Source: Ulota crispa
Lineage: Eukaryota > Streptophyta > Bryopsida > Orthotrichales > Orthotrichaceae
NCBI GenBank assembly: GCA_963920765.1
Contig: OY987242.1
Coordinates: 27,986,002 to 28,050,001, forward strand
Direction of reading: 5' to 3'
DNA length: 64,000 bases
The notes beneath the pieces were generated by a model. That model searched no databases. It was not told the DNA's origin and saw only the letters and a list, made by a program, of their open reading frames with translations. Below, in pieces: positions 8,497-64,000 of the stretch (the stretch's first letter is position 1; every line of letters starts with the position of its first letter). The position numbers and the translations under genes are program-made.

Positions 8497-9443
8497 CCCC
8501 TAAACGACCAAGGGTTCATTCAATGGACACTTGAGAACTTGGTATAGGGTCATACGAAGTCAATATTGGATGTTCTCAAAATTGTTACACAACGTGTACT
8601 TACACTTGTAAATTTCAAGTGGAAATGTAACCTTTTCCTGAATTGGATGTCCAATTCAAAAGTTGAGTTGCCCAAAAGAATTCGGGCAGCTTGGGCATCT
8701 TTGCAAAATCTAATACTAAAACTCTCACAAATTTTTGAAATTTGGCATGTAAGTAATTAATAAAACATAGTGTACAAATGTCAAAAAAACAATAAAATTT
8801 GAGCTCTCAAATCATATTCTAAGAGGAGTCAAACTTTATTAACTTTGTTCAAGCAACTTCAAGAAAAAATGTTTTCTTCTAACTTCAAGCCCTATTATCT
8901 TGCACTCTCTAAACTCAAAGTTCTTGAAACTTTTTTAGCATATTCCAAATGTTTGTCTCTAACTTTTGACTATTCAAATTTCAAATAAAGGACTTCCTCA
9001 TTGCAAAAGAAATCGTGAAAAAATGACTAGTGTATTGCCAATTTGCTTAAGTACTTCCTTGCATTGCAAGGTGATTTAGAATAAGCTAGGTTTTATATTT
9101 GCTTCTGAAGTTTTTCATGAGTGGATATAACATTCTATATTTATGAATGGTCAAAAAGCTCAAATATGTGTAGAGCAAAAAATCACTCTAGGAGGGCTTA
9201 AAGTTTGTTGACCTTGTTTTGCAAGAACAAAAATAAGTTGTTTTTCTCTCTTTAAATGTTATAATCTTTCAATCCATGAAGTCAAATGGGATGAAATTTT
9301 TATTGTATATTGGATAAATATTCTACTATGGTTTTTTATGGCTAAGGTTTCTAAAAAATGTTTTGATTTTCATTTTTGATCAATACACCAAAAAATGCAT
9401 TTTTTGACAATGTTTCTTGAAAAATCCCTTGGTCCTTTAGGGG
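8497..9443. mobile_element. piggyBac-like non-autonomous element A
   Basis: The 947-bp element has ends CCCCTAAACGACCAAGG and, read inward from the right, CCCCTAAAGGACCAAGG. It is flanked by TTAA at 8493-8496 and 9444-9447. It is the same subfamily as the copy at 48515-49471: both continue with matching ACTTGAGAACTTGG and GATGTTCTCAAAA. It has no transposase frame. Confidence 0.85.
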
Positions 9444-9447
9444 TTAA

Positions 9448-10237
9448 CCGTGAGCGCCCCACCTCCCCAATATGGCCTCCCATAATCATACTTTTTCAAA
9501 ATTGGGTCCAAATCAAAAGTGTACTATCCATAAAACTGTAAGGCTACGGTACCACTCTCATGCCGCAAAGTGGGCAATGGGGGTTTCACCACTTGTACAA
9601 GTGCGGATTGTGCAAATCAAGTATGCTAATAATACATCAAATTTTCATTTCATGTGGTTTAGGTTTTGGGCAAGAGGATAGAGACCACTAGATATGGCCG
9701 GTTCAATATTGTTAGGGGTATTTTCACTGTTTTGGCACGCATCCTTCAAACTAGAAAATTGTTTTGCAATTGTGCCATTGGAAGTTGTGCCCTTGCGGAA
9801 GTCAAAGCCGTACCTCTCCCTTGTCTATTGTCCACCGTGCCGTGTGAGCCTTGCAACTTCAGGCCTTTGAAAAAGTACCTTGCAGATGTTAGAACATCAC
9901 CAAATTTGGCAACAAGCAAGATACTTGTAAACCACACCCCATGCCTAAATTTCATCAAAAGGGGCCTCTTTTAAGGCATGAATTCATGCGTCCACAACCA
10001 CTGACCCCTCCCATAATTGGCCAATTGCCACATAGTCAATTGTACTTTGACTATCATAATCTCCAAAATGGTGTGGTCAAAAAATTTGCAAATTTCTGAT
10101 CAAATGCATTAAGCACCCTTTTTGCTATTTTAGAAGTGAATCCTCTCTTATCTAAGTTCCTAGCTTGGGGCATACAATGCTTTTGAGCATGGTCCACTTG
10201 GCCTCATTTTTTTGATTCAATTGTGGGCGCTCAAGGG
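9448..10237. mobile_element. piggyBac-like element B (GAGCGCCC end type)
   Basis: This 790-bp segment starts CCGTGAGCGCCCCACC and ends, read inward from the right, CCCTTGAGCGCCCACA. Its bounding TTAA sites (9444-9447 and 10238-10241) are shared with elements A and C on either side. It carries a short unassigned reading frame (9666-9974) in which I recognise nothing. Confidence 0.65.
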
Positions 10238-10241
10238 TTAA

Positions 10242-10887
10242 CCCCTAAATGCCCAAGGCCTATTTGAGCTTCTTGGAATTTCCATGAAACTAAACAATCA
10301 ACTAACCCTTTCATAAATTTCATCAAGTTTTTTTCAACTGTAACCGTACAAATTTAAACTAAACTTGTTAGAGTTTACATGAAAAAAGAAAACACAACAA
10401 TATCACTTATAGTTTGAAAGATTATAACCTTTGAATACAAGGGTGTTAAAACTGCAAAAGTGACTTGAAGCCTTTGAATCCTCATTTCACATGTCAAATC
10501 AAAAAAGTTGGTCACCAAAAAAATATGAAGTTTATGGTCATGACATGTCTAACTTTAATCAATTTACAGTTTTAAAAATCTACTCTTATATATTTTTTAA
10601 ATGGATTTTGAATGTGGATTTTTCTCCAAACTCTAATGTATTTGAAGCTCATTTTCAAGATCTTCCAACTTACACTAGAAAACTCAAGATTGCAATGGAC
10701 ACTCTTGTACAAAAGCTTGAGTAGAAAAATCATCAACACTTATTTCAAAAACTGATATTTGATGTTGAAAATAGACTTCAAAACAAACGTGAATTGAAAC
10801 AAATATTGAAAATAGTGATTTGATAAAGCTTTATTCATCTTCAAAGTTTCGTAAAGACCCAAATATGGTAGCTTGGGCATTTAGGGG
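10242..10887. mobile_element. piggyBac-like non-autonomous element C
   Basis: The 646-bp element has ends CCCCTAAATGCCCAAGG and, read inward from the right, CCCCTAAATGCCCAAGC. TTAA lies at 10238-10241 and 10888-10891. It is the same subfamily as element K at 27357-28008, as shown by the shared CCTATTTGAGCTTCT-type start. Confidence 0.85.
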
Positions 10888-11073
10888 TTAATGGTGTTGA
10901 GGGAGGATGCACCCTTTCTCAATCCTTTTGTCCACAGCCTTATGGAGTTCATTTCAATACAATAAAAATGACAATTTCTGATAATAAGAGCCTATTATTT
11001 TCTGTAGCACAAGGTTTGAAGGTTACTTACACATTATGTGTCTTTCTTGTGAATCATTGACTAAGGATGCAAG

Positions 11074-12336: not shown

Positions 12337-12374
<38 letters not shown>

Positions 12375-13369: not shown

Positions 13370-14256
13370 CTCCTAAAGCACTAAGCTCAAATTTTCACAA
13401 AAGCCGCTCCAAAACTGTCATTCCTAGTACAAGGACCAAATTTTAGAAAAATAAATTAAAAAAAATAGATAAATCAAAAGATGTGGAAAAAAATTCAAGA
13501 GTTTTCACTATGTAGATTGTTAGATATTTGAGTTTGAATTGACAAATAGCCATTTTTTGTCTCAAAAATCTAGGCAACTCCACTTCACAAGGTCATATTT
13601 GTATGAAAAAACTCCAAAATAGTTGTATTTTTTTGGATTTGTTCTTCAAAGCAAGTTGGCTACACACTTGAAATTTTCAAATCATTTGGACTTTTGGAAA
13701 AACAGTAGTAAATAAAAAGAAGTAGAGAATAATTCAAACCACTAAATTGTTAAGAACTTAATTATGGAAATAAAATATTCCAATCTCAATGGTTGTAATG
13801 TTGTGATAAACAATATACATCTTTTGGTTTTGTTTTTGTTCTAAAATATTGATAATTGAGTAAATTAATGGACTTCAAAGTTTATTTTAGAGTAGAGAAT
13901 CCATAATTGCCCAGCAAACAAAATTTTCACATAACTTTCATCTCATTAATCAAAATGGAATGATTCAAAGCTCCTCAAGTATATATTAATCTAAAGAACC
14001 AATTTCAAAAAACAAAATTCAGAAAATGTAATTTTTGAAATAGTTTTTTGGCTGCCCGTCTAGCAAAGAAAACAACGTATCATGCAATAACCTTTGAACC
14101 ATGAAGTCAAAATTTATGAAATTTGTTGGGCCTTAAAGATTCTCCTTGGACACATCATGTGTGAAAATTTCAAAGAAAAAAAATGAAAACCCCATTAGTA
14201 GTGAGCTGCCCAAAAATTACTATGTTGCCAAAAAAGGGCGTTCAATGCTTTAAGGG
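13370..14256. mobile_element. piggyBac-like element D
   Basis: The 887-bp element has ends CTCCTAAAGCACT and, read inward from the right, CCCTTAAAGCATTGAACG. TTAA flanks it at 13366-13369 and 14257-14260. The interior shares stretches with element N, including ATGATTCAAAGCTCC and GGCTGCCCG. Confidence 0.72.
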
Positions 14257-14635: not shown

Positions 14636-15547
14636 CCCCTAAAGAATCAACTGTCCATTCAACAGATAAACGGGATTTTGGGTATGTACCTATGGCCAAA
14701 CTACTTTGCATGATTTTTTGAAATTTTTATTGAAGATGGGAATTCAAAGATTTAAGTGGGTATCTAGTTATATTTCAATTGATGCCAAGGAACAAGAGTT
14801 ATGTCCAAATAAGCACAAATTTGGGGACTCCGGGCAGCAAATAAAATCTTACAAAAGCTTGATTTTTTTTTCCTTTATCATAGATTATATCTTTGTCTAC
14901 ATCTGAAGCTTTGATTCATTCCATATGGACTAGTTATGAGAAAGTCATGGACAATTTTGTTTTTCTGGCAATTCAAGCATCTTCTTGAAAAAATAACTTA
15001 TAAACTTCATTTTTGAATGCAATTTTCACATTTTTTCAAAAAAAATTGTTGGAGAGGGTGAAGTTTGCTTTCTAGAACAATCTCACCTTTGGGATCATTG
15101 CATTTCAATTCCATTGCAAGGTTATTAGCAATTTAAATTTTGTTCAATCTCATACCTTCTTCTGCCTAATGTTTTTTTTAAATAATGAAGATTAGTTATT
15201 TTTTGTTTTTTTTTTCTCCCAAGATTACCAACTCAACTTTTCACCATGCAAAAATAGAATTCCAAACTCTGTGGTGCAAAAATTTTAAATTAAAAAAGTT
15301 CAAAGTTAAAAACTCTAGTCAAGCAAGGTGCAAAAAAAGTTGTTTTTTACTTTTTTAATGCAAATATCTTCCAACTTGTATAGTCAAAGTTCTTGAATTT
15401 TGTATGACACATTCTTGTAATAGTCTAGTACAAGATCCTACGGTTAGATATGCAAAAAGACTAATTTTCAAACTTTTTTACTCTTTGCCATAGAGGTGGC
15501 AGTTTTGCGTGTCTTTTGACAAAATAAAGGCCATGGTCCTTTAGGGG
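14636..15547. mobile_element. piggyBac-like element E
   Basis: The 912-bp element starts CCCCTAAAGAATCAAC and ends, read inward from the right, CCCCTAAAGGACCATGG. TTAA lies at 14632-14635 and 15548-15551. An inverted relative (O) sits in the lectin intron at 44710-45872, and the element at the right window edge resembles its right end. Confidence 0.85.
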
Positions 15548-15809: not shown

Positions 15810-16348
15810 CCCCTAAACGCCCAATCAACCATTTTTTGGTCGCTGCCCTTTTTTTGGGCTGCCCAAAATGAAAAAATATATTTTTTGAAAAATTTGAAAA
15901 AAAACCATATAGAAAAGCGGATCTACTTTCCAACCCAATTTGAATCACGTCAATCCAAGTTAAACTCCATCAAAGAGAATTTTTCAAAGAAAAACACTTC
16001 AATATTTGCTAATGTTACAAAATTTACTACTTTGGGAAACTAATGATGTTCTCTCCATCAAAACTATTGCATTTTTGAACTTTCATATACAATGTCTATT
16101 TTTAACCAATCATACCAAATTTCAAACTTTATGAATATATATTTTTAATTGTGATGAATATTAAATGATAAATGCTTATAAATTCATTTTAGAAGAGTAC
16201 AAAACTTTTTTTGAATATTTGACTGTATGAATAATTACCAAACATCATGATTCTTATTTTCTCTTTAGATTCAACCTTCATCAAAGTTACAAAAGTATCA
16301 TTTTACAATGCATCTATGTTTTGCCCTTACCCCTCGAGCATTTAGGGG
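15810..16348. mobile_element. piggyBac-like element F
   Basis: The 539-bp element starts CCCCTAAACGCCCAATC and ends, read inward from the right, CCCCTAAATGCTCGAGG. The right flank is TTAA (16349-16352). The left flank reads ACCT, so the left target copy has decayed or was never canonical. Confidence 0.75.
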
Positions 16349-17178: not shown

Positions 17179-18090
17179 CCCCTAAGTGCCCAAGGTACCA
17201 GGTTTTGGTGTCCAAAAAATTTCAAGAAATTTTGAAACCCTACTGTTGAGACCCTTTTGAAGGCACAAATTTTATTGTTTTCAAGTCTTTTTTTGTGGAA
17301 AGGTTTGCGCTAAAGTCAATTTCATTGTTCAAATTTAATTTCCCCCATATCTTATTCCAGTTGTTTTTGGTGGAAAAGTGATTGCAAGCATACATTTTGT
17401 GTCATGAAAACTGTCATGAATATTGTTGTGAATAGTGTCACAAAGCCTATGACAAGTTGCCACATTGAAAAAATGGGCATCAAGTTGAGAAAAATGTGAA
17501 AATTTCCCTTGGGCAATAAGGGCCCTTTTATTGAAATTTTGACATCTAACAAAATCTAAAACTGATGTTGGACTAATTTCACTTAGAATGTCATTGTTAA
17601 AAAAATTACAATTCATTCAACATTGAATTTTCTTTCTTTCATAAGGATTTTTGGTCAATAATTGAAGCTAAAAGAATTATTTGAATTGGACAGTTGAGCT
17701 TTGATAGTTGCGTTGCTGGCTCACTTGTGAAATTGTGATCATAGTTTTGGAAGGGAGGCCATTAGTTTTGAAGTAACAACAAACACTACAACATTCTAAG
17801 TGGTTGTTTCTCAAATTTGTATCCAAAAGTTGCCAATTTGCATTAGAAATTTTGAGCAGTTCCAAAAAAAAGCAAAAAATTCTATACTCATCATCATTTA
17901 ATCACAAATATCTTAAAATTTGCGTGGCCATTTTGGATTCTTTTTGAATAACACCATCTAAAAACCTTGAAGTTCAAGATTCAATAGTTACAATTTTGTT
18001 TTGATGTTCAATAATCATCTTACAAGAACAATTCAAAATCTTCAAAACTGCCTTTCAAAAACAAGAAATACACCCTTGGGCATTTAGGGC
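17179..18090. mobile_element. piggyBac-like element G
   Basis: The 912-bp element starts CCCCTAAGTGCCCAAGG after TTAA (17175-17178). Its right end reads CCTTGGGCATTTAGGGC, and the following site has decayed to TTGA. It is the same subfamily as element L (35578-36467) and the inverted partial copy near 49.9-50.8 kb. Its intact TTAA at 17913-17916 is the site occupied by element R in that other copy. Confidence 0.8.
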
Positions 18091-19735: not shown

Positions 19736-20627
19736 CCCTTAAAGGACAGAGCTAATATAATACATGTTGTGTAGGCTGTTGTATAATTGGCATTTGCTAG
19801 CAACAAAAAGTTTTAATTTGGGATCTTGACTACCTCACTAGAACATTATTGATCTATATTCTAACTTCTTTGTTGATCTCAAATGTAATAAAGGTGTGGA
19901 TGCACTCCAAATACAAGTAAAATACCCCGTAGTGTACTGGTTGCAAAGGGCTGCTTTAACAACATATTCATTAAATTGGGAGATTGGGCACCTCCCAAAA
20001 TAACCAAAGGAGACATAAAACTTTTCAATTTTAGGTTAGTTTTGAAAGGTTTTATTGCAATTTAGGTCAAGTTGACTTAAATTCCAATAAAATCTTCTAA
20101 TTTTAGGTCAAATCTGAAAGGATTTATGTTGATTCAGCTCAAATCAAGTTGAATTGACATAAAACCTTTTGTCAACTTTCCTTTACATTACCTCTCATTT
20201 CAATGGAGAACCCCCATTAATGGATGGGAATTGATATGTACACACTGGGGATTGATATTTGCACACCTCCTTAGGGAGTAAACTATAGATTTCTACTGTC
20301 AAAAAGCTGAATTTGAGAATTTTGAATTCAAATTTGGACTAAGAGACCATGATTTAGTTTAGAACCATAAAAAAAAGTTGCAATTGGACAACACCCAATG
20401 AAAAGCTTAGCTAAGGGAAAAAGTCTTACTTTTACTTTTATTTGTAATAAAAATTTAACTTTTTCATTGATTGTTGTGCAATTGCAACCTTTTTTATGGT
20501 TCTAGACTAAATCATAGTCTCTCAATCCAAATCTGAATTCAAAATTCTCAAATTCAACTTTTGGATGGCCCCTGGTGTGTACATATCAATTCCCTTAATG
20601 AATATGAGGTTCTTTGTCCTTTAGGGG
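19736..20627. mobile_element. piggyBac-like element H with internal hairpin
   Basis: The 892-bp element starts CCCTTAAAGGACAGAG and ends, read inward from the right, CCCCTAAAGGACAAAG. TTAA lies at 19732-19735 and 20628-20631. The right third (about 20250-20590) folds back on itself: GAGAATTTTGAATTCAAAT and AACCATAAAAAAAAGTTGCA recur inverted around a short centre. Confidence 0.83.
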
Positions 20628-20898: not shown

Positions 20899-21399
20899 TC
20901 AAGTGTAAAAACCCAAATCTTGCAAGTCCATGCAACAAAGGGATGGATTCTTGGTCTCAATGAGGTTTACAAGAAACTCAAAAAAGGCAGGTTCACATGC
21001 AATGATCAAACCTCCTTCATAATTATATCCAAATTCCTTGGCCGACTTTGCCAACAATATTTGGAACACATCATGCTTGAGGATCTTAACTTTGATCACA
21101 AATTGGCACCTCTCCACACCAATATACACAACCAAGGACCCCATAGGCACATCATTGGGTACAACTTCACCTTTTTCCAATTTAACCCCTAAGCGCCTGA
21201 GGGCTTGGCTCCAGGTGCTGGGGATTGCCAAAAGAAAGGCTATTTGTACAAAGTGTACTAACTCAAAAAAGAAATTGTACAAGGGGGTAGAGAGTGGGTT
21301 TGAAGTACAATTGAGTAGCCTAACAAGATCATAATTTTCAATCCACATAGACACTTGGATTGAAGGAAGGTCCCTCAATTTTAGCTTTTTTAGTTTCAA
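20899..21399 (-). CDS. SAUR-like (small auxin-up RNA) ORF with a transposon-derived N-terminus
   Basis: SAUR proteins are small plant regulators of auxin-linked growth. The C-terminal 95 residues carry the SAUR core: VPNDVPMGSLVVYIG, then RCQFVIKVKILKHDVFQILL, AKSAKEFGYNYEGGLIIAC and FFEFLVNLIE. This matches the family pattern of DVPKGH-AVYVG, R-FVVP-SYL-HP-FQ-LL, and EEFGF---GGL-IPC. The usual Lys/Gly and Pro residues are partly replaced, so the copy may be relaxed. The first 71 or so codons lie inside the 232-bp TTAA-bounded element I (21186-21417), and the frame stays open across the junction. Translation could instead start closer to the core, but no ATG lies between the junction and GSLVVYIG except the Met of DVPMG. 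It may be a live chimera or a 5'-disrupted gene. Confidence 0.62.
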   Translation of the reverse strand: MKLKKLKLRDLPSIQVSMWIENYDLVRLLNCTSNPLSTPLYNFFFELVHFVQIAFLLAIPSTWSQALRRLGVKLEKGEVVPNDVPMGSLVVYIGVERCQFVIKVKILKHDVFQILLAKSAKEFGYNYEGGLIIACEPAFFEFLVNLIETKNPSLCCMDLQDLGFYT

Positions 21400-21417
21400 A
21401 CTCTAGGTGCTCAAGGG
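21186..21417. mobile_element. piggyBac-like element I (232 bp), inside the SAUR ORF
   Basis: The ends are CCCCTAAGCGCCTGAGG and, read inward from the right, CCCTTGAGCACCTAGAG. TTAA is present at 21182-21185 and 21418-21421. It lies exactly where the recognisable SAUR homology stops, so it looks inserted into the 5' part of that gene. Confidence 0.75.
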
Positions 21418-23674: not shown

Positions 23675-25463
23675 TGTACAGTACCCAAAAGAAAAAGTAC
23701 ATAACACCCTTTTATGGCATCCAAAGAAATATGTATAACAAATAATATAACTGATGTTTCATTCTCACATTTTTAATATGCAATCCTCATGCAATATTGA
23801 TCAAGCATATCAAATTTTAGTTACTAAAACCCAAAATCCTATTTTTGGTAAATGGTTTTGTGTCAAAATCATGGTTTTACAAGAAAGCTGATTAATAAAT
23901 AGTGGTGGTGAATTTTTGAGATTTGATTGCACAAATATATAGGAGACATTCATATGCACATCTCCCTTTTAACCCTTTAAAGACCACACACATTTTCCCA
24001 AAATCCACTAGAAACCTGGGCAATAAGATTAAATGTGCATTTGAAACAAATATGGGCCCAATTTGAATAATCCAACCGTGTAAATGTGAAGAACACCTTG
24101 TTTGTTGTAATGTATCTAAATTTCAGCTAGATCTACTGTTGGAGGTGAAATATTATAATGATTGAGTGAGCCATATATGGAAAATCTCTAGTTTTTTATG
24201 CTTGTATGGTTTTTAACGTTAACGCTTCATGCAAGCTTTGATTGAGAAGAGCCTTACATTTCTAGAAAGCAAGGTTTCCCACCTTTCCAACAAGACTAGT
24301 TTCACTCAAAACAGACAAAAATAGCAATCACAAGGTGTAGCTAAGTGGACAAAAAGGGTCAAAAATCCCAGTTTCTTTGCTACCCTAAAATGGTTCTACA
24401 AGAAATTTGATAACTGTTACGGAAAATCCGATTAGTGAAATCAATCAAGAATTGGCCTTAAATGTAGGATGAACTTTTTTTTAAACAAATTGATAGCATC
24501 ATTTCAATGGATTCTCAAATAGTACAATTGTACAACTACTGTATAGAGAAACAACACAAGCTTATTTCTTGAGCAATCTGAAGTTTTTTAAGACTACACA
24601 ATTGAAATATGGCATTCTTCTTGGATGCTTGATGTATTGTGTTGTTACTTTGATCCATCTTTGACCAAATATGGATACGTATTTTGAGGCCATGATGTAT
24701 AAACACCATTATTTATCAACTCCCATATCTGATTCTATTGTCATTTTTTGGGTTGGATGCAAAATTCTTGTGATCACAAGCGTTCTTCGAGATTATTTTC
24801 CAAATTATTGAGCAATTTTATTGTATAGCCAAAAACTACTCTCCCAAACCAAAATATGGTTTGGTGGTCTCTAAACGGTTAAACAAACATTTCCAAATAA
24901 ATTAAAATTCCTTCTATAGAGATTTTAATGTTAGGGTGATCATGACCAAATTTAGTAAAATACATATCTCTTCATGGAAATTAGTTTTTGGCAAAAAAAA
25001 TATATATCATCATGTTTAAAGGTACAAACTAATCATAATATAAGAGTCAAATAACAAAAACTAATTTCCATGAAGAGATATGTATTTTACTAAATTTGGT
25101 CATGATCACCCTAACATTAAAATCTCTATAGAAGAAATTTTGAGTTTTTTGGAAGTGTTTGTTTAAAAGGAAGATGTGCGTATGGATGTCTCCTACATAT
25201 CCATGCAATCAAATCTCAAAAACTCATCACCACTATTAATTAATTAACTTTCTTGTAAAACCATGATTTTGACACAAAACCGTTTACCAAAAATAGGATT
25301 TTGGGTATTAGTAACTAAACTTTGATATGCATGCTTGATCAAGATTGCATGAGGATTGCATATTAAAAATGTGAGAATGAAACATTAATTATATTATTTG
25401 TTATACATACTTCTTTAGATGCCATAAAAAGTATCATGTACTCTTTCTTTTGAGTACTGTACA
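23675..25463. repeat. Long foldback element (arms ~400 bp), interrupted by element J
   Basis: The left arm starts at TGTACAGTAC (23675) and the right arm ends with its complement at 25463. The arms match over AAGTACATAACACC/GTATCATGTAC, TTCTCACATTTTTAATATGC, and ATTTTAGTTACTAAAACCC or close variants. The inner arms (24885-24990 and 25045-25160) share CATGACCAAATTTAGTAAAA and ATGGAAATTAGTTTTTG. Element J interrupts only the left arm. A diverged single-arm relative lies near 29470-29670. Confidence 0.82.
23973..24878. mobile_element. piggyBac-like element J, nested in the foldback
   Basis: The 906-bp element has ends CCCTTTAAAGACCACAC and, read inward from the right, CCGTTTAGAGACCACCA. TTAA lies at 23969-23972 and 24879-24882. 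The uninterrupted right arm of the host foldback has a single TTAA at the matching place (about 25163-25166), which proves insertion with TTAA duplication. Confidence 0.88.
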
Positions 25464-27356: not shown

Positions 27357-28008
27357 CCCCTAAATGCCCAAGGCCTTTTTTGAGCTTCTAGGAATTTACT
27401 CTAAATTGTAGAAAATGTCAAATTTTGATAAGTTGTATTAATTTTTTTAAAATTGTAACCATACAAATTCAAATTATATATGTTAAACATTGCATGGGAA
27501 AGGAAAACACAAGAATACCGTTTATGGATTGAAAGATTATAATGTTTGATCAAGACTCAAGAGGGTGTTAAAATTGCAAAAATTACTTCAAAGTCTTTTA
27601 ATCCTCTTTTCACATGTCAAGTCTAAAATCTTGGTCACCAAAAAAATATGAGGTCAAAGGACATAACATACTAACTCCAATCCATTTATGGCTTTTGAAA
27701 ATTTCTTTTACAATTTTTTAATATGAATTCCTAGTGTGAATTTTTCTCCAAAATCTAGTGTATTTGAGACTCATTGTCATGAGCTCTCAACACTAAAAAG
27801 GTGAAGATTGTAATTCACACCCTTGCACAAAATTTTGAATAGAAAATTCCCAATCAATAATATTAAAAATTTGATTTTTGATGCTAAAACAAGTTTTCAA
27901 AATGAATAATTCTAAAATAATAATTACTAAAAATATTAGCTTAGTTAGGTTTTATTGAACTTCAAAATATTGTCGGCACCAAAATGTGGTGCCTTGTGCA
28001 TTTAGGGG
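27357..28008. mobile_element. piggyBac-like element K with TTAG target copies
   Basis: The 652-bp element has ends CCCCTAAATGCCCAAGG and, read inward from the right, CCCCTAAATGCACAAGG. It is flanked by TTAG on both sides (27353-27356 and 28009-28012) rather than TTAA. It is the same subfamily as element C. Confidence 0.83.
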
Positions 28009-35577: not shown

Positions 35578-36467
35578 CCCCTAAATTCTCAAGGTACCAA
35601 ATTTTGGTGTTCATAAAATTTGAAGAAATTTTGAAACCTTGTTGAAGACATAGATTTGATATTTTTAAGGTTTATTTTTTGGAGAAGTTTTGCTGAATTG
35701 AGCTTTAGCATTCAATTTTAATTTCCTCCATATGTTATTCCAATTGTTTTCGGTGGAAGCTAAATTGTAAGTATGTATTTTGTGTCTTAAAAAGTGTCAT
35801 GAATAATGTTGTGAATAGTGTCACACAGCTAATGACAAGTTGTCACATTGAAAAAATGCCTACTTTCCACATTGAAAAGATGGGCATCAAGTTGAGGAAA
35901 AAGTGAAGATTTCCCTTGGGCACTCCTAGGTAATAAAGGCCCTCTTATTGAAATTTTGTCATGTAACAAAATATGCTTTTGGATTAATTTCACTTGGAAC
36001 ATTTTTGTTTTAAAAATTAGAATTCATTTGTAGTTGAATTTTCTTTTACACATGATAATTTTTGGGAAATACTTAAAGCTAAAAAATTTCTTTATATTAG
36101 GTGGTTGTGCTTTGATCGTTGCATTGTAGGTTCATTTGTGAAACTCTAGTCATGGATTTGGAAGGGAAGTCATTAGTTTTCAAATAACAACAATAGACAC
36201 TAAATTATCCTAAAGGGTTGTTTTCCAATTTGTATCCAAAAGTTGCCAATTTGCATTAGAAGTTTTGAGCGGCTCCAAAAAAAAGCAAAAATTTCATACT
36301 CATTTACATTCAATCACAAAATCTCAAAATTTGCGTGGCCATTTTGGATTGTTTTTGGGTAGCACCAACTTGCAATTTGATGTTTAATAATGATCTTACA
36401 AGGATAATTCAAGAATTTCAAAAAAGCCTTCCAAAATCAAGAAAAACACCCTTGTGCATGTAGGGAT
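35578..36467. mobile_element. piggyBac-like element L
   Basis: The 890-bp element starts CCCCTAAATTCTCAAGG and ends, read inward from the right, TCCCTACATGCACAAGG. TTAA lies at 35574-35577 and 36468-36471. It is closely related to element G across its length, including TTGTATCCAAAAGTTGCCAA. Confidence 0.85.
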
Positions 36468-36704: not shown

Positions 36705-36846
36705 CCCCTGAATAGCCCTCGAGAGCTGAACTATAGGATTGTATTTTTTGAAAATACCCTCGCAATCGAACTGTTGAACAACAAGTTTTGCCAGGTCCAT
36801 ATACAGTGGACATATAGCCACAAAGGGCGTTTGAGATGTTTAAGGG
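36705..36846. mobile_element. Short piggyBac-like element M (142 bp)
   Basis: It starts CCCCTGAATAGCCCTCGAG and ends, read inward from the right, CCCTTAAACATCTCAAACG. TTAA lies at 36701-36704 and 36847-36850. Only the terminal parts resemble the larger elements. Confidence 0.7.
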
Positions 36847-38305: not shown

Positions 38306-39017
38306 CCCATAAAGGCCCATTGTCCCCTCAGGAGACAAATGGGGTTTTGGGCAAGTACCTATGGCTAAACTACTTTGCGTAATTTTCTAAAACTTTTATT
38401 AAAGGTGAGGAATTCAAAGATCTAAGTGGAAATGTAACTTTTTCTTCATTCTGACATTTATTGAAGACGTTATGCATGAATAACTAATAAACATGGGACT
38501 AGGCAACCCAAAAACTTTTGTAAAAATTGTTGTTTTCAAATAAAAATCTGAAATAGGTTCTTTAGACTTATATAGACGTGGGGAGCTTTGAATCATTCAA
38601 TTTTGATAGATGAGATGAAAGTTATGAGAAGTTTTAGTTTGCAGGTAGGTGTGATCTTGAGAGAAACCACACCTACCCACAAACTAAAACTTCTCATAAC
38701 TTTCATCTCATTTATCAGAATTGAATGATTCAAAGCTCCCCACGTCTATATAAGTCTCAAGAACCTATTTCAGATTTTTGTTTGAAAAAAAAGCAATTTT
38801 TACAGAAGTTTTTGGGCTGCCCGGAGTTCCCTCTTTTCCATAAATTCATTTTTAGCTTCAATAAATGTTAGAATGAAGAAAAAATTTCATTCCCATATAA
38901 ATTTTTGAATTCCTCACTTTGAATAAAAGTTTCAAAAAATCATGCAAAGTAGTTTAGCCATAGGTACATGCCCAAAATCCCATTTGTCCCTCAAAAGGGT
39001 CCTTGGGCCTTCAGGGG
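38306..39017. mobile_element. piggyBac-like foldback element N
   Basis: The 712-bp element has ends CCCATAAAGGCCCATTG and, read inward from the right, CCCCTGAAGGCCCAAGG. TTAA lies at 38302-38305 and 39018-39021. Nearly the whole element is an inverted repeat with arms of about 350 bp; the centre reads AAACTTCTCATAACTTTC and its complement around a short loop. Confidence 0.85.
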
Positions 39018-43170: not shown

Positions 43171-46100
43171 CTACTTGAACATGCACACACCGATTTGCGT
43201 GAGATGGGTGTTGTTATTGGCTCCCAAAAAGCCCACTATGTAGCCCTTGTTCTTGGGAGATAAGAAAGACTTTTTGCCCGGATTATCAACATTGCCCCAA
43301 GTGTATTGATTGTTGTTACTGTCAAAAAATGTTAGTGTAACTAGCCCATTTTTGTCGTTGTAAGTTCCACCCACTTGCACAAGTGGCACGTTGTTAGGAT
43401 CCCTTATAGGAAACTTGAACTACACCCAACCCCAATCATTTCAATGCATCAAGACACAAATGCCAACTTGTTACATTGAATCATAAGATCTCTCAAAATT
43501 GTACCTTTAGATAATTCAAAGGACTCTCATCAAGCAAAAGCCTAAAGCCTACACTACACTCTTCATGAGGAGTCAAGCTCAATGAGACGTTAAAGATATT
43601 ATTTCAAGGAAGTTTGTTCATATAGAGATGACAAGCAAGCAAAGACTTGTCAGCAGTAATAAAGTGCATGGGTATATCTTGTAATCTAGCTTTACAAAAT
43701 AGTCCACATTTGACGCTTTGATTAAGTATGGTTGGAAAAATCTAATCAGACAAATAAAAATCCATCACCACTCCTCTCCCTCAACGTGGTACTTCTCATT
43801 GTCCACATTACCTTATAGATCATACTAAGGGCCTCCTTCCAAGTGATCCAAGTGAGGGGGTGTTCGATGAAGGGCATTGAATCAGCCAAATGGGAGTCTT
43901 GATTTTGCTAGAATCTCATTTGATCGATTATCGATGGGCTCTACCAACCACAATCTGGGGAGTTTTTTTAGCTTAACTAGCTTGTATCCTACATTCTCTT
44001 GGACCAACTAGTTGTCTAAAGTATACCCCCGGCCAAGCCTATAGAAATAAAGGATATTTTCTCTTTTTTCCTCTTAAATGGTCAATTTTTTTCCTAAACT
44101 TTTGAATTCAATTTGGCAATTCTCAAAATCAACCAACTAGCTTGTGACTAAGCTTAAATGCAGGTACCTGCATTTAACTTGTGTTTTTTATAACAGATTT
44201 TTTTGGACGTCCACTTGAACTGTGTTACAATAGATGTTAAAACTAACATCTTGATGTCATGTTTGATGGCATTGTTAACATAAAAACAATTAGACATCCA
44301 AAAAATCTGTTATAAAAAACACAAGTTTCTTCTAGTGAGTACTCCCCATACACTACTACCAACCACCCCCCTCACATGGAAGGAGGCTCTAAGTAGCATT
44401 TTCATATGTCCAATAAAATTTTCTCAAGTTTACCAAGGGTCTCAAACGTGTTATTCATTAATTTGGGAAAACAATGGGTACCATTTTGTACCTCACCTTA
44501 ATCCAAAATTGCCATCTTAATTTAAATTAAGGAGGTCACCTGAAACCTAGTTATTGAACTTCTGTCCAAAAGGAGCGTATTTCTAAAAGATGCATATCTC
44601 ATTTCATTGGAAAACAGTTAACAAATTTCCAATTCAATGAATAAGGCGTTCTTTGGAAAAAAAGTTAGAAATCCCACAATTCCACTTTGTATGTTTTTTC
44701 CCAAATTAATGCCTAAATCTCTGGGGCCTTTATTTTGTCAAAAGACACTCAAAACTGCCACTTCTATTGCAAAGATTAAAAAAGTTTGAAAATTGGTTTT
44801 TTGCATATCTAACCATAGGATCTTGTACTAGACTAGTATAAGAATGTGGAAACAAAAATTCAAAAACTCTAACCGCATAGATTGCAAGATATTTGTGTTT
44901 AAAGTGTCAAAAACAAACTTTTTTGCACCTTGAATGACTAGATTATTTGACTTTGATCTTTTTTAACTTCAAATTTTTGCACCACAAAGTTTTGGGGTTT
45001 ATTTTTCAAAGGTGAAAATTTGAGTTGAGAATCTTTGGAAAAAAATCAAAACAAAACATACTTAATTTTCATTCTTTAAAAAAACATTAGTTAGAAGAAG
45101 GTATGAGACTAAACAAAAACTTTAATTGTTAATAACCTTGCAATGGAATTGAAATGCAATACAATGGTGAGACTATTCTAGAAAGCAAACTTCACCTATT
45201 CCAACAATTTTTTTTGAAAAAATGTTAAAATTTCATTCAAAAATGAAGTTTATAAGTTATTTTTTCAAGAAGATGCTTGAGGTGCCAAAAATTAGGATTG
45301 TCCATAGCTTTCTCATAACTAGTCCAAATGAAATGAATCAAAGCTTTAGATGTAGGAAAAACTATAACCTATGAGAAGGAAAAATAAAAATAAAAATTTT
45401 GCCCAATCTCCATAAATTTTTGCTTATCTAGGCATAACTTTTGCTTTTGGTCATAGATTGGAATAAAAATTATATTCCCCAAAAGCTAATAACGGGATAT
45501 TCATTAAATTGGGAAAAACAAAGGTACCATTTTGTACTCCACCTCAATCCAAAATAGTCACCCTAAACCATATTCAAAAGTATCAAATTCAATCTAAGCC
45601 ACTAAGATTTTTTCCCTCACAAATTCCTCCTCTCAAGTGAGGACATGTGTACCTAAAAACATTGGAGCTTGGTTGGGGGCCTGCTTTGGGGTCACCCCAA
45701 ACCTTCAAAAAGTCCCAAAATGAACGTTTAGTCCCAATTTAATGAATATCCGGTTTAATGTATTTTCCTATTTACAAAAAAAAGTTTCAAAAAATCAAAA
45801 CAAAAATTGAAACCGTAGGTACCTGCCCGAAATCCCATTTGTCCCGCGAGGGGACACTCGGGGATGTAGGGGTTAACAAATAACGTGTTCTCAATCAAAC
45901 AGAGTATCAAAGTACATAAACTTCATCTCAACCAAAGCAAAGATGACACAATTTAGCATTATGAATCACATCTTTCTGAGTTACCGATCACCACTGTACT
46001 CAAACAATTGCCTCTGACTGTGCATGACGAAATCCACAGAGAGACAGAGAGACAGAGGACTTACCGTGAATTTCTGTTTGCCGGTGACGACGCCATGGGT

Positions 46101-48514: not shown

Positions 48515-49471
48515 CCCCTAAAGGACCAAGTGGCTATTCAATAGCCACTTGAGAACTTGGGTAGGGTCATATGGAGTCACTTTTTGTTAGATGTTCTCAA
48601 AACTGTTACACAAGGTGCAAATATGTATATCCCTCAAGTGGAAATGTAATTTTTTCCCCAATCGGATGCCCGGTTCAAAAGTTATGTTGCATAAAAGAAT
48701 TCAGGCAGCTTGGGCATCTTGGGCATCTTTGGAGAATTTTATACTAAAACTCTCATCAACTTTTGAAATTTGGCAAGTATGTAACCAAAAAGACATGGTG
48801 TACAATTGTCAAAAAAAAAAAAAAATTGAGCTCTCACATCATGTTTTGAAGGGAGTCAAACTTTGTTAACTGTGTTCAGGCTGTTTCAAGAAGAAAAAAT
48901 TCCTCTAACTTTAGGCCCTATTCTATTTCAATTTATAAATCCAAAACTCTTGAAACTTTTTTTCACTAATTCCAAATGTTTGTCTCCAACTATTCACCAT
49001 TTAGATTTCAAATGAAAGACTTCCTCATTGTAGAAGAAATCATGAAAGAATGACTAGTGTATTGCCAATTCACTAAACCTCCTTGTATTGCATGGTGATT
49101 TACAATAAGCTAGATTCTATACTTGCATCTGAAAATTTTCATGAGTGAACCTAACATCATATACTTGTAAGTGGTCAAAAAGTTCAAATTTGTGTAGAGC
49201 AAAAGTTTTACTCTAAGAAGGCTCAAAATCTGTTGACCTTGTTTTGCAAGAATGAAAAAAAGCTATTTTTCTCACTTCAAATGTTATAATCTTACAATCT
49301 ATGTGGTCAAATGGGCTGAAATTTTTTGCACATATTTATTTATGTGTTTGACTAGCTTTTGTACTGTTGGAATTGAGAAAAAATGTTTTTTTTTTTCAAT
49401 TTTGAGCAATGCACTAAAAGTTGGCAGTTTCTGAGATTTTTTCTCAAAAAACACCCCTGGTCCTTTAGGGG
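48515..49471. mobile_element. piggyBac-like element Q (A subfamily)
   Basis: The 957-bp element has ends CCCCTAAAGGACCAAGTGG and, read inward from the right, CCCCTAAAGGACCAGGGG. TTAA lies at 48511-48514 and 49472-49475. It aligns with element A over its whole length. Confidence 0.87.
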
Positions 49472-49594
49472 TTAATCGTGCTTTGAGCTCTTGGATGATT
49501 GTTGGCTAAGCAGAGAAGATTGTATGCTAGAAACAATGATAACGTAACTGCAAGTAATGGCAGGATTCTATTTACCAGCGACCTTTGGCAAAGG

Positions 49595-49862
49595 AACGGG
49601 ACATTCATTAAATTGGGAAAAACAAAGGTACCATTTTGTGCTCCACTTCAATCCAAAATAGTTACCTCAAACCAAATTCAAAAGTATCAAATTTAGTCTA
49701 AGTCATTAAGATTTTTTCCCTCACAAATTCCTTCTCTCAGGTGAGGACATGTGTACCAAAAAAACAGTGGAGCTCAGTTGGGGGCCTGCTTTGGGGTGAT
49801 CACCCCAAACCTTCAAAAGTCCCAAAATGACCATTTTGTCCCAATTTAAAAAATATCCCGTT
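49595..49862. mobile_element. 268-bp TIR element, 4-bp target duplication AAGG
   Basis: The ends are AACGGGACATTCATTAAATT and, read inward from the right, AACGGGATATTTTTTAAATT. AAGG flanks both sides (49591-49594 and 49863-49866). It is the same family as 45491-45755. Confidence 0.82.
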
Positions 49863-49899
49863 AAGGTTAGTTTACTAGAGTTACTAAAATATATTCCCA

Positions 49900-50800
49900 T
49901 CTTTTACAACATCAAAACAAAATTGTAATCATAGAATCTTGAACTTCAAGGCTTCTAGATGGCGCTATCCAAAATAGTCATGTAGATTTTAACCCCTCAC
50001 CGCCCCGGGTACAACAAAAAAGACTGAAATGGGACCACATTCTGGCTCTTGGAGTGGTGAGGGGTTAAGATGTTTGTGATTGAATGTGGATGAATGTAGA
50101 TTTTGTGCTTTCTTTGGAGTTGCCCAAAATTTCTAATGCAAATTAGCAACTTTTGGATACAAAATTGGAAAACAACCACTTAGGATGCTTTAGTGTTGAT
50201 TGTTGTTACTCCAAAACTAATGGCCCCTCTTCCAAATCCATGAACACCTTTTCACAAATGAGCTTGCAACACAACTATCAAAGCGCAATTGTCTAATACA
50301 AAGAACTTTTTTATCTTCAAATATTGACCAAAAATCATTATGAATGAAAGAAAATTCAATGGTGAATGAATTCTAGTTTTCATAACAAAGACATTCCAAT
50401 TGAAAGTAGTTCAAAAGTAATTTTAGAATTTGTTGAATGTCAAAATTTCAATAAAAGGGCCCTCTTTGCCCATGGGAATGCCCAAGGGAAACCTTCACCT
50501 TTTTCTCAACTTGATGATTGTCTTTTCCATGTGACAACTTATTGTAGGCTCTGTGACACTATTCACGACACTTTTCATGACACCTTTCATGACACAAAAT
50601 GTATGCTTGCAGTTAACCTTCCACACAAAAAATTGGAATAAAATATGGAGAAAATTAAATTTGAACACTAAAACTAACTTCAACGTGCAACTTTTCCAAA
50701 AAAAAACCGTTAAAACAAGCAAATATGTGCCTTCAATAGGTTTTCAAAATTTCCTAAAAAATTTTGAATACCAAACTCTGGTGCCTCTGGCATTTACGGG
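49900..50800. mobile_element. Partial piggyBac-like element S (G/L subfamily, inverted) carrying element R
   Basis: The right end reads CTGGCATTTACGGG followed by TTAA (50801-50804). The interior matches elements G and L in inverted orientation, for example CATCAAAACAAAATTGTAA and TTAGCAACTTTTGGATAC. The left terminal sequence is missing, so the start is approximate. Confidence 0.72.
49993..50064. mobile_element. 72-bp piggyBac-like mini-element R nested in S
   Basis: The ends are CCCCTCACCGCCCC and, read inward from the right, CCCCTCACCACTCC. TTAA lies at 49989-49992 and 50065-50068. Element G shows the same sequence context with a single TTAA (17913-17916), so this is a clean insertion. 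Confidence 0.78.
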
Positions 50801-50992
50801 TTAAGTTGGAGCCTCCCAAGACTTGGGAGTTGGGACTGTGGGAGGCTGGGAGCACCGTCGGCAGCATCTTGACTTTAGCCTGAAAATTCCTAATCCTGGG
50901 CTCAGGATGACTCTATAGCTGCAGGCCTCGACGATTTTGAACGTGCAAATGGAATAACCGCAGCCCACAGGGGTTTTCACGCCATCTCAAGG

Positions 50993-53040: not shown

Positions 53041-53044
53041 TTAA

Positions 53045-53174
53045 GGTAAGAGGTTCTAAAATGGTGCTGGTTCTAAATGCATGCACTTATAGGAATGTTT
53101 AACATGTTCCCCTCAAATATTTATTATTGTCATTCATGAGTTAGGTATTCTTAGCCATTTTAGAGCCTCTTACC
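53045..53174. mobile_element. GGTARGAG-family element W3 (130 bp)
   Basis: The ends are GGTAAGAGGTTCTAAAATGG and, read inward from the right, GGTAAGAGGCTCTAAAATGG. TTAA lies at 53041-53044 and 53175-53178. No coding capacity. Confidence 0.8.
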
Positions 53175-53178
53175 TTAA

Positions 53179-59524: not shown

Positions 59525-61828
59525 TGCACTCGATTTGCAGCTTCAACCTTGAGCCACTTTCAGGAGCCTGAATAGATAAAATAAAATTATTCTGAGCTCC
59601 CACACACAAGTATGAATAGTTTCCGAAGATGCGGTTGCACATTCGTTCATGCTATTACATATCTATATAATTTGATTTGCAGATCCTGGAAGTGACTAGG
59701 TGTCTTAATGCGATATTGACTAGTAACTTCGAAACACGCAGTGTCTGGCTTGGACAAATAATTTTCGATTCTTTTGAGAGAGTAAAATAAAGTCCGGGAA
59801 GGAGCTGGAATGCGTGACTTGCGACAGGCCAGACGATAGAAAATAGATTGGAAGACACATAATCTTACATTTAATTTCGATGTACGTCTTGCAGTTTCTG
59901 CTTGTCATCCGCTTTGGCTGCTCCTGCAACGGAACGTAACCAGCATTAGTAAGAAGACAGCATTGATGACGCCTTCACAAAGAAATGTACAATTAGTTTC
60001 TGTGATTGGTCCACTACTCAAAGCTCAATGTGACAAAAGCATGGGCACAACATGTACACTTGTCTCACAGCATACTGTACTAGAAACCCTGAAGACAACT
60101 CCATCAGACTGCAAGGGCTTTTAATTGTGACCACATTGTAACAGCAAAGTCAGAAAGCTTGATCCACATATAAGAAAGTTGGAAGCAGTTGTAAATGCTC
60201 TCTAACGAATTAAAGTAGCCAGGCAGTAGCTAAAAACGTCAGAAATTAACAAGAGTTGGAACTTACAATCAAGGTACAGTAATGGACATAACTTTAAGAT
60301 ATGGAGAGATATTGCAAGACATGGCTTAGAACTACAGAGGGGAGTCGAATATGCTGAAGGCCATGCCCTGTTATTTTAAGCAACGGCCCAGAATAGTATC
60401 ATTCGACCGATAACACCGTCGATGAGCTTGAGATGCTCCAAGGTGCATGAGCAAACTGATGACTACTGTACACTAGGACCCGGTCTGCAGCTTTGACCGT
60501 ATCAACCAACCAATAGTCTTTAACAAAAGGCTTTCAGCGAAGTCTTCGCTTGTAAACATCTCAAGCAATAAGCTGCTAACAAAGCTCCTGCTTTTCGTGA
60601 TATGCTGGCAGACAACGATGATGCGTGGTGGTCTTACCCCACATTGCGCCCTGACTCCAGAATAAACAGCTCTCCATTTCCCTTCTATAGCCAGTGCCAA
60701 ACCGCAAATGACCCAAAATAAACTCCAACCTACTTGCCAAAGTGGAGGACGGCGAAACACACTCACGGTTCCAACTTCCACTGAAAAGGTGGGCTGATCG
60801 ATAGCTCTCACGCCGAAGAAGATACAACACCAAGTGCCTGCTCCAAAACCTCCCAAAAGACCTTCTTTCCCATGCCTGCAGCTATGGCGCCTCTTGGACA
60901 AACATGTCAACACTTAAGGGGTCTTTGTTGGCGCAATGCGTCGCTTAAGAGCAGAGATAGCCAGCAACAACGCTGTGAGTGTTATTGACTAGTTATCTGC
61001 ATCCACGGAAGCTCCCATTTGCACGCAGTCCAATCATGAGAGGTTGCCGGCCGCCCCCTGTATTCGAAGAAGACTCACCTCACCTTCTCCTGAACATCAG
61101 AAGTAAATCAGTTTTCTGCATCATATGTCAGATACCCTCCTGATTGTCAAAATGTAGAACCTTTCGTGAATGTCAAAAGGCCATTGCCATAGCCCTGCGC
61201 TTGCCACAGAAGCTGAAGGCCTGCACCGGCGCCGCTACAAACAATGCGAAGGACAGAAGCAAAGCAGATGCACCCACCCGTCTCATGCAAACCCAGCTTC
61301 CGTGACTCTATATCGTAGCCAAGGACATGGCCAGTAGTCTAAGAACTTTACCAAGGGACGCGCTCGGCTAAACCTACTAAGCTTACTCCTTCGAAAGCTT
61401 GAAGAGCGGCTGCTGCTGCTGCAGCTTCAACCTGCTTACAGACGCTCCGACTACTAAAACAACTCTCAAGGCACTAACTTACTAAGCTTACTCCTCTTCA
61501 CCGAATGTCTAACTCATGACGAGACCTGCAGAATCAAAAGGGCCTGGCCGGGTTCCCCCCCATCGCCATTGCTTCACCACGTTCGTTGCCTGTGCCAGCT
61601 AAGTTATGTTACGAAATGAATGGCACCAGAGTCTACTGCTGCTAAGTTACAGCAGTAATCACCGACTTCGTCTGTCACTGGTCGTTCGTACGATCCGTTT
61701 TCATTCCGGTCAGATTTGATTATTTCTCACGAATCCCTGTTACTCCGCCTCACTTTTCAAACTTTCCAACCAGCCTGCTTGCTCAACGTACCGGTACTCT
61801 CCCCCACTTCCTACTCAAAAACTCTACT
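59525..61828. other. IQD upstream region
   Basis: This stretch is less AT-rich than the repeat fields and probably holds the IQD promoter and perhaps 5'-UTR exons. The minus-strand frame at 60473-60913 has no recognisable motif. A short (GCT)n patch lies near 61408. Confidence 0.45.
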
Positions 61829-61831
61829 AAT

Positions 61832-62143
61832 GTAGGAGGCTCGTGAATGGACCATCTAAGGACTGAAACTGAATTTTGGGGAGGTGAAACTTCTAGAAAT
61901 ATTTTTCAGTAAATTTCCCTACAAGAGGAATTGGCATCTAGGTTGCTTCATATTTTTTTGGAGCTTTGTAGAAATAGTTATGAAATGTTGAAGTTGAAAC
62001 AGCATAGGGCTTTAAATTGCCCACCTCCTCACAAATGTACATTACTTATACATTGTTGAAGATTATGAAAAAAAACATGTACAAATAGAGTACATTTGGG
62101 GGTGGGTGATTTTAGGACTTGGGCGTTTTTAGAACCTCCTTCC
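61832..62143. mobile_element. GGTARGAG-family element W1
   Basis: The right end reads inward as GGAAGGAGGTTCTAAAAACG with TTAA at 62144-62147; the left end GTAGGAGGCTCGTGAATGG has lost its TTAA (CTAAT). The interior matches 63104-63426, for example CTGAAACTGAATTTTGGGGA. Confidence 0.7.
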
Positions 62144-62147
62144 TTAA

Positions 62148-63099
62148 GGCCCACTTTACACTATGTTGGAGAAGAACATTGGTCAAGACTTGTAGGATAA
62201 TGGAGCAATGAGATTGGAGGAAATTTCATTTGTTACCAGACTAGGTGGGGCTATAATTTCATTTTTCTTGGTGGGAGCTAGTTGAGCGGGAGAATGAGGT
62301 ACTTTTAGGCTCCAACACAATCATGGCAACATACAACTAGGAGATGACCCTGTTAAAACGACATCCTCAAACAGCAAATTTGCTTGTTTCCCAATGTCGT
62401 GGGACTTTTACTCCGTTTACTACTGGAGTTGCTTGCAATAACTTGCAGCTTCATGGCAACAACTCACAAGTGATTGTAAGTGTATTCTCCAATACCTAAA
62501 TCTGCAATGAGAATTGCGTTAAGATTGAGAGGATCCGTCAGCTGAAAGGACTACAAGATAACTGGAACGGGAAGCGGCCAGTTCCCATTCCCGAACCTTG
62601 TGATGGGTTGATGATGGCCTGCCTAAGTTCCTCCTGGACGATTTCCGCTTGAGATAAGAGCAAGTTAATGAGAAGTAATTTCTTGCGTGAGCAACCAGCT
62701 GAGTTCCTTTCGAAATCCAGCGGACATGATCAGTGCTTCTTGTGCAAGGAAATTCCATGTCAGTCTGCCTGAATGTACTGCTGGTAACTTAACTATGGTC
62801 ACGGCAAGTGAACATTTGTCGCCTGCTCTGGCGCCCCTCCAGTCATCAATTGCCCTGCAACGTCTTTCCTGTCCTCCACGTTACGTTTCAGAACTCAGAC
62901 CCTGCACCCTTCAATACTGGTGATTACTGGACTCTATACAAAAAAAAACACGAACGACTGTTAAGTTATTGCTTGACCTCTTTAATTAATGACACAGCTC
63001 AGGCGTCCCCACGCTCCATATAAGCAAATGGATTAAACTTAACTTATGTGGAGTTTCTTGTGATGACTGACAACCAAGCCTCCTTGCATCGTTCTCACA
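62148..63099. other. Spacer without recognised gene
   Basis: Only short, unassignable frames occur. No structured repeat was noticed. Confidence 0.4.
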
Positions 63100-63103
63100 T
63101 TAA

Positions 63104-63426
63104 GGTAAGAGGCTCATAAACCGACCATTTAAGAGCTGAAACTGAATTTTGGGGAGGTGTAACTTCTTGATATATTTTTCAGTAAATTTTTCTTGAAAGA
63201 CAAGAGGAATTGGCATCTAATTCAAGTTATTTTGTATTTTTCAGAGCAATGTGGAATTAGTTATGAAATTTTGAAGTGGAAAGGCCATATGGCTCTAAAA
63301 TGGTGCACCTCCTCAATGTACGTCCACTATACATTTCTGAAAGGCTATGAATAAGGGCATGTACCGGTGGAGTTCATTTGGGGAGGTGAGCGGTATTATT
63401 GCCTCGCAGAATTCGAGCCTCTTACC
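63104..63426. mobile_element. GGTARGAG-family element W2
   Basis: The 323-bp element has ends GGTAAGAGGCTCATAAACCG and, read inward from the right, GGTAAGAGGCTCGAATTC. TTAA lies at 63100-63103 and 63427-63430. It is homologous to W1 across its length. Confidence 0.82.
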
Positions 63427-63656
63427 TTAATCCTTGAGTGTCCAGAGTTATTTTAGGGTTTAGGAGAAAATAGGGGGTTTAATGGCCACCACAGCTTGGA
63501 AAATTACATCTAGAAAAGTGACCATAGGATTTGAAAAAGGACTACCTTCTCTTGTGACGGGGACCAGCCATGACTATTTTCACCATACAAATTAAGAGAA
63601 AAAGTGAGATAATGTTGTGGGCCCCAATGACAGGATCCTGTTGCTGGGGTGCTTAA

Positions 63657-64000
63657 CCCCTAAAGGACTGAGCCATTTTTTCAGTGAAAATCACTCAAAA
63701 CTGCCACTTTTGGGGGTGTTAGTAAGAAGGTAATTTTTTTGAAAATTTGGAAAATCTAATCGTAGGATCTTGCCCTAGACTGGATTAGGTACTTGTGGGA
63801 AAAAAATCAGGTCATTCCAGATGGACATGAGTGAGATATTTACATCTAAAGTGAAAAGAAACATTTTTTTCATGCTACCGCAAAATTTTAGAAGCCTTTG
63901 ACCATTCTTACATGAAAATAATTGCTCTATGCAACTTTGCGCTTTATTTTTCCCATGTAGGAGATCAAGTTAGCTATGTGTGGGAGAATTTTCAAATCAA
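63657..64000. mobile_element. piggyBac-like element T, cut by the window edge
   Basis: It starts CCCCTAAAGGACTGAGCC after TTAA (63653-63656). The first part resembles the right end of element E read inward (CAAAACTGCCAC). The other end is outside the window. Confidence 0.75.

Follow-up and report, generated by a model that had tools for sequence, protein, structure and literature searches.

What moved the many small, TTAA-bounded elements that occupy the 64,000-nucleotide stretch of DNA analysed here in full (hereafter, the window), and to which transposon superfamily do they belong? An earlier note on this DNA had read them as a piggyBac-like family and lettered them without coordinates, so their positions were re-derived (Table 1). 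We recognise 19 elements with CCC...GGG-type ends in the window and, with the support of their copies and of genome-wide ends, conclude that this TTAA-bounded family is real. Its members are almost certainly non-autonomous elements of the piggyBac superfamily (miniature inverted-repeat transposable elements, MITEs) in a moss, most likely moved by the transposases of larger elements.

All elements had been described as lying between TTAA sites. This holds on both sides for 14 of the 19; of the others, one is flanked by TTAG on both sides, two have one decayed flank, and two show a single end. The three start strings given in the earlier note do not fit every element (for example, CCCATAAA at 38306 and CCCCTCAC at 49993), and the size range of 72-957 bp has one exception, 44710-45872, with 1,163 bp, which holds another, nested repeat. 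Together, the 19 elements amount to about 21% of the window length, with 17 intervals contributing 12,625 bases and 9448-10237 another 790; in this sum, the 72-bp element is covered by the interval 49908-50800, and 44710-45872 is taken with its nested repeat. Weak cases are 36705-36846 and 21186-21417, with terminal inverted repeats (TIRs) matching at 9/17 and 11/17 positions, respectively, and 9448-10237, the left TIR of which is degenerate (CCGTGAGCGCCC vs CCCTTGAGCGCCC) and was assigned by eye.

In the window, four families are represented by at least two copies each (8497/48515, 10242/27357, 17179/35578/50800, and 14636/44710(-)), with 73-82% likeness. Wherever an end is retained in both copies, the likeness breaks off at its TTAA, in family 4 directly at one end only. 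Together with the genome-wide counts and flanks given below, these four families provide support that is independent of the end profile. For the profile, 27 window ends were chosen as seeds by TTAACCC or GGGTTAA. Beyond the selected letters, the seeds have a 17-base motif near CCCCTAAA[T/G]G[C/A]CCAAGG in common. T occupies position 5 in all 27 seeds, and at position 4, 19 seeds have C and 6 have T, which makes CCCCT the commonest start; the 906-bp family starts with CCCTT. The profile finds 50 sites in the window, 29 of them after TTAA, compared to 13.15 and 0.1 in 20 first-order Markov resamplings, but as 27 of the 29 TTAA-preceded sites are the seeds themselves, this excess is circular rather than independent evidence. 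A generic search of the window for all TTAA pairs with similar ends returned 16 pairs, 9 of which begin with CC; because 12 other 4-mers gave 0-18 pairs (AATT, 18), this count alone is not distinctive.

The scan for the 17-base ends plus TTAA proposed in the earlier note was run and located these ends genome-wide. The 17-base end has 3,823 exact occurrences in the 275 Mb genome, of which 3,258 (85%) directly follow TTAA, whereas the reversed control has none. Two further end classes account for 1,289 (TTAACCCTTTARMGACCA) and 831 (TTAACCCYTCAYCGCC) TTAA-preceded occurrences, with none for the controls. When neighbours less than 3 kb apart were paired among the first 100 listed places, all 19 pairs formed by TTAACCCTTTARMGACCA were convergent, 17 of them with a span of 899-923 bp; the first, 17-mer class, again among 100 listed places, formed 12 convergent pairs (10 spanning 637-664 bp), three divergent, and six same-strand ones. 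The 906-bp family (23973-24878) has 39 further near-full-length copies among the best 40 of 2,400 candidates, with relatives elsewhere up to 94% alike, and the family 2 element at 27357-28008 has 39 other such copies among the best 40 of 4,776 candidates. The 40 + 40 scored places are full length within 4 bases per end, bar two extra pieces of one copy that is interrupted by another. A copy of the 906-bp family inside another copy of the same family was observed at C6:9799292-9801109 of G000, the inner one with TTAA on both sides.

Copies without paired TTAA flanks had been named in advance as a finding that would speak against piggyBac. Among 20 distant copies, 19 are flanked by TTAA on both sides, which amounts to TTAA at 39 of 40 flanks, the lone exception being TAAA/TTAA. 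These comprise 10 copies each of the 906-bp and the 652-bp family, drawn from rankings of similarity over the whole element: for the 652-bp family, the ten rows that follow the copy of the window itself, and for the 906-bp family, the first ten matching positions 1 to 906, where three rows ending 1-3 bases short were skipped. Two empty sites in the window each contain a single TTAA. The 72-bp element at 49993-50064 interrupts a family 3 copy, and the empty site in the 17179 copy is ATCTTAAAATTTGCG; the 35578 copy reads ATCTCAAAATTTGCG at the matching site. The 906-bp element at 23973-24878 splits one arm of an inverted repeat, the other arm of which reads CTTCCTTTTAAACAAACAC. The distant-copy flanks and the two empty sites thus show the 4-bp TTAA target duplication that is characteristic of piggyBac. 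The TTAG on both sides of 27357-28008 also fits a 4-bp duplication, not one of TA, and occasional TTAG duplications are recorded for piggyBac in the consulted part of PMC10813416. Neighbouring ends have one TTAA in common at 9444-9447 and 10238-10241 in the window, and also in the transposase loci L016, L019, L022, and L024 (see below); such junctions suggest that the flanking TTAAs of old elements were reused as targets.

The piggyBac transposase domain (PF13843, DDE_Tnp_1_7) has at least 120 matches in the same genome, all over the cut-off (lowest E, 1.3e-73); 14 control genomes yielded none. This search scored 116 of 528 candidates, and none among those 116 is in the window; likewise, no transposase family was detected in the 120 of 172 element-overlapping open stretches (at least 36 amino acids) scanned against Pfam. 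Within this coverage, the scans agree with the earlier statement that no transposase open reading frame is visible. The open stretches of the window elements yielded two single weak Pfam matches, Tra1_ring (0.0011) and Myb_DNA-bind_3 (0.0053).

By best match to five queries, rather than by a tree, 24 transposase loci fall into five groups, A to E, weakly so for L008 and L026; 20 loci were read with 4 kb flanks. Compared to PDB, a group-D stretch has piggyBat 9c0f (1.7e-16) and 6x67 (3e-13) as its sole matches up to an E of 0.001, and a group-A stretch matches the same two entries (4.8e-13 and 1.7e-08). The database names 6x67 only 'Transposase'; we take it to be the T. ni piggyBac transposase. 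The three catalytic Asp motifs could be aligned to piggyBat, the first two with the group-D stretch and the third with the group-A stretch. When six-frame translations were searched by pattern, 6 of the 20 loci proved to retain all three Asp (L009, L018, L022, L026, L027, and L028); L019 has the three motif patterns with the second Asp replaced by Asn, and the remaining 13 loci show one or two. Cys-rich C-terminal tails are present in L024 and L028, that of L024 scoring only -0.2 against the tail of piggyBat. The matched stretch is free of stops in 10 of the 120 PF13843 rows, several of which span just part of the model. None of the upstream open frames in L022 and L014 matches a Pfam family; they resemble each other over about 82 residues (2e-08), and a second element gene is therefore not claimed. 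Three pairs of opposite-strand piggyBac matches with equal or near-equal scores were observed in G000 (C2:36765124/36779670, C7:18203169/18223004, and C10:676128/785346; separated by about 15, 20, and 109 kb), which may reflect local inverted duplications.

The second proposal of the earlier note, a search for a piggyBac transposase with these ends, was carried out by scoring all TTAA pairs around the 20 loci, with no end sequence assumed. Eight loci contain accepted TTAA-bounded transposase elements of 5.0-5.7 kb with CCC-type ends (sizes including both TTAAs, and scores out of 16: L016, 5,308 bp, 13; L018, 5,510 bp, 12; L020, 5,230 bp, 14; L021, 5,027 bp, 12; L022, 5,746 bp, 15; L024, 5,581 bp, 14; L025, 4,998 bp, 10, second-ranked; L027, 5,102 bp, 12). 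CCC starts 15 of their 16 ends, one end of L016 being CTCC. The C-run inverted ends characteristic of piggyBac are thus found on these accepted elements, the window seeds being left aside as they had been picked for CCC, and DDE_Tnp_1_7 transposases lie inside elements with the same type of ends, which bears out the piggyBac assignment. The best of seven control 4-mers scored 11 in six accepted loci, 14 in L020, and 12 in L025. Because control 4-mers score as high or higher in the latter two, L020 and L025 rest on TTAA-to-TTAA alignment with L016 (89-93%) and L021 (88%), respectively. The top pairs in L012 and L019 are CCC-type (11/16) but were not counted among the accepted ones, and in nine further loci, no pair with CCC at both ends is among the top three. 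The pair 541-6830 of L014 was dropped as a composite, its left part being a separate MITE (like that at 63657 onward), with the group-D likeness beginning about 1 kb inward. L012 and L017 agree in their right end, which reads CCCTTTAAGGACC next to TTGA and TCCTTTAACGACC next to TTAA.

The end variants differ by group, with one to three loci each: CCCCTAAATGCC in D; CCCCTTGAGGAC in E; CCC(C/T)TCA or CCCTTGACCGCC in C; CCCCA(A/G)AA or CCCTAGAA in A; and CCCTTTA..GACC in B. The window ends resemble those of at least three of the five groups. Family 3 (17179-18090) aligns with the L022 element (5,738 bp) at positions 1-57 (to 1-57, 75%) and 333-911 (to 5157-5737, 81%). Because both ends match and most of the middle is missing, family 3 is an internal-deletion derivative of a group-D, L022-type element. 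The 906-bp family is like group B in its ends only, the 72-bp element has ends like those of group C, and similarly sized end pairs, of 79 and 80 bp, lie at other places on C1, and family 1 has only the last 25 bp (88%) in common with the group-D element in L014.

Several observations weigh against the piggyBac assignment. No accepted end pair was found within 4 kb in 12 of the 20 transposase loci, and where a TTAA pair was accepted, it beats the controls by score alone in six of the eight loci, ties with them in L020, and falls below them in L025. No intact transposase was seen among the 20 loci read, where the commonest window end class, CCCCTAAAGGACCAAGG, also lacks a directly linked transposase element. 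Finally, most seed ends begin with CCCCT, one C beyond the published CC[C/T]T, which is the literal piggyBac terminal motif in the consulted part of PMC2872659; the four end motifs named in that of PMC10813416 do not include CCCCT.

A very improbable alternative is that some elements are members of Sola3 or of some other TTAA-using group, and that the piggyBac transposases are unrelated residents. Sola3 uses TTAA too, and the unlinked CCCCTAAAGGACCAAGG class would suit this explanation. However, this class has the CCCCTAAA..CCAAGG frame in common with the linked group-D class, and TTAA followed by a CCC start agrees with piggyBac as presented in the excerpts of PMC2872659 and PMC10813416. Ownership by Kolobok is hardly credible. 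Kolobok likewise duplicates TTAA, and the window does contain a distinct small TTAA family whose ends are 5'-GG..CC-3', but Kolobok ends are 5'-RR..YY-3' (PMC9587614, relevant passage), whereas those analysed here (CCCCTAAA) are 5'-CC..GG-3'; for family 3, this explanation is contradicted by the parent-type element, the transposase of which matches piggyBac models. Both explanations were marked down on the ends and linked transposases, no genome search aimed at Kolobok or Sola3 transposases having been made. The idea that the elements are MITEs with a TA target (Tc1/mariner, Stowaway) or a TTA target (Tourist) and simply favour a TTAA context deserves virtually no credence either: TTAACCCC..GGGGTTAA does allow a reading as TA followed by ACCCC..GGGGT, but the TA or 3-bp duplication of Tc1/mariner or PIF/Harbinger was not found, the TTAG pair around 27357-28008 being a non-palindromic 4-bp direct repeat, 39 of the 40 distant-copy flanks and both empty sites holding a whole TTAA, and the linked transposase being of the piggyBac family.

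Under the piggyBac assignment, transposases encoded by the larger elements would have bound the inverted ends of the small ones, which would then have been cut out and pasted at TTAA. Several kinds of transposase, differing in the end variant that belongs to each, appear to have been at work in the course of time. The earlier suggestion of several subfamilies moved by one transposase is too simple given the five transposase groups with different ends. A broader proposal appears doubtful to us: that this plant hosts a full piggyBac radiation of many lineages, on a par with those in animals, with at least five transposase lineages that have their own end codes, thousands of MITEs, and some lineage so recent that a working native piggyBac survives.

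The superfamily is a known one; the host is under-documented and the scale unusual. The elements resemble piggyBac (6x67, piggyBat 9c0f) in TTAA duplication, C-rich inverted ends, and DDE_Tnp_1_7 with the Asp motifs, and differ in the moss host, the five transposase groups in one genome, and the prevalence of CCCCT, not CCCT, at seed ends. At 5.0-5.7 kb, the elements exceed the classical length of 2,472 bp, but stay within the animal range of 1.23-9.51 kb (PMC10813416, in part). The coral CMITEs, which are piggyBac MITEs, are alike in TTAA flanks, related transposase-bearing elements, an empty-site allele, and arrays; however, their host is an animal and their arrays consist of one unit (PMC2872659, in part), whereas here three different neighbours are joined by single TTAAs. 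The statement that piggyBac is rarely described in land plants is fair, but the superfamily is not unknown there: in the portions consulted, PiggyBac has an entry for every taxonomic group covered by Table 2 of PMC4438587, where land plants are compared with other groups; a table of fern repeats (PMC6890710) names it as well, and so does a list of MITE superfamilies in angiosperms (PMC10004981). No report of moss-native piggyBac elements was found among the papers listed by searches of an open-licence library, which excludes most subscription journals; in one moss paper (PMC10619864), which contains 'piggybac' twice, one of the two passages reads 'piggybacking'.

Five of the ten window open frames that were tried match Pfam families of plant proteins (isoamylase domains, RFT1, HVA22, SAUR-type PF02519, and DUF4005). 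The host is taken to be a moss because the LFY DNA-binding domain of the genome reads KPKMRDYVHCYALHCLD, with the moss-type residue; Asp at that position presumably marks mosses, with His in most other land plants. The PF02519 match is within the open frame 20899-21402(-); this SAUR-type open frame (20899-21417 region) enters the 232-bp TTAA element on its 5' side, and the matched domain is outside the element.

Table 1. Elements with CCC...GGG-type ends in the window
Element	Position	Strand	Size (bp)	Flanks	Remarks
Family 1, non-autonomous piggyBac-type	8497..9443	+	947	TTAA/TTAA	78% copy of 48515-49471, likeness stops at TTAA; another copy in L012
Wedged between two neighbours	9448..10237	.	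790	TTAA/TTAA	one TTAA common with each neighbour
Family 2	10242..10887	+	646	TTAA/TTAA	TIR 16/17; 73% copy of 27357-28008
Element	13370..14256	+	887	TTAA/TTAA	TIR 12/17; partial matches in L013-L016, L019, L021
Family 4	14636..15547	+	912	TTAA/TTAA	TIR 12/17; 82% to 45468-44725(-) over 767 bp
One flank decayed	15810..16348	+	539	ACCT/TTAA	TIR 12/17; partial matches in L016
Family 3, one flank decayed	17179..18090	+	912	TTAA/TTGA	internal-deletion derivative of group-D L022 element
Element	19736..20627	+	892	TTAA/TTAA	TIR 14/17
Beside SAUR-type coding stretch	21186..21417	+	232	TTAA/TTAA	TIR 11/17
Nested in one arm of long inverted repeat	23973..24878	+	906	TTAA/TTAA	
Family 2	27357..28008	+	652	TTAG/TTAG	4-bp direct repeat
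Family 3	35578..36466	+	889	TTAA/TTAA	74% copy of 17179-18090; both ends match L022 element
Weak TIR	36705..36846	+	142	TTAA/TTAA	TIR 9/17
Fold-back element	38306..39017	+	712	TTAA/TTAA	arms 38289-38466/38856-39033 and 38530-38653/38668-38791
Family 4	44710..45872	-	1,163	TTAA/TTAA	nested copy of another repeat at ~45491-45818
Family 1	48515..49471	+	957	TTAA/TTAA	
Nested in family 3 copy	49993..50064	.	72	TTAA/TTAA	
Family 3, far end lost	49908..50800	-		single TTAA end, 50801-50804	80% to 17179-18090
Cut by window edge	63657..64000	+		TTAA on visible side	matches of 345-349 bp in L013, L014, L016, L026

Other repeats were observed in the window. A second TTAA-flanked small family is present at 53041-53178 and 63100-63430, with a degenerate copy at ~61828-62101; its ends, GGTAAGAGG(C/T)TC..GAGCCTCTTACC, are 5'-RR..YY-3', that is, Kolobok-type, and the genome contains 145 exact TTAAGGTAAGAGGCTC ends (controls, 0). 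The long inverted-repeat element that encloses the 906-bp element, at 23675-25463, is of another kind, with arms about 90% alike and ends, delineated by eye, of approximately TGTACAGTAC. Pieces of another repeat family are scattered over 44445-49934 (at 44445, 45491, 46504, 48054, and 49595), one of them inside 44710-45872, and 131 perfect copies of the 4-base unit TCAT occupy 32605-33128.

The piggyBac group is best known from animals, where it is a widely used genetic tool, and its record in land plants seems thin. With more than 100 piggyBac transposase matches and thousands of TTAA-bounded ends, a moss genome of this kind offers a direct route to ask how old the superfamily is in plants, whether it came there by descent or by transfer, and how ends and transposases diverge jointly.

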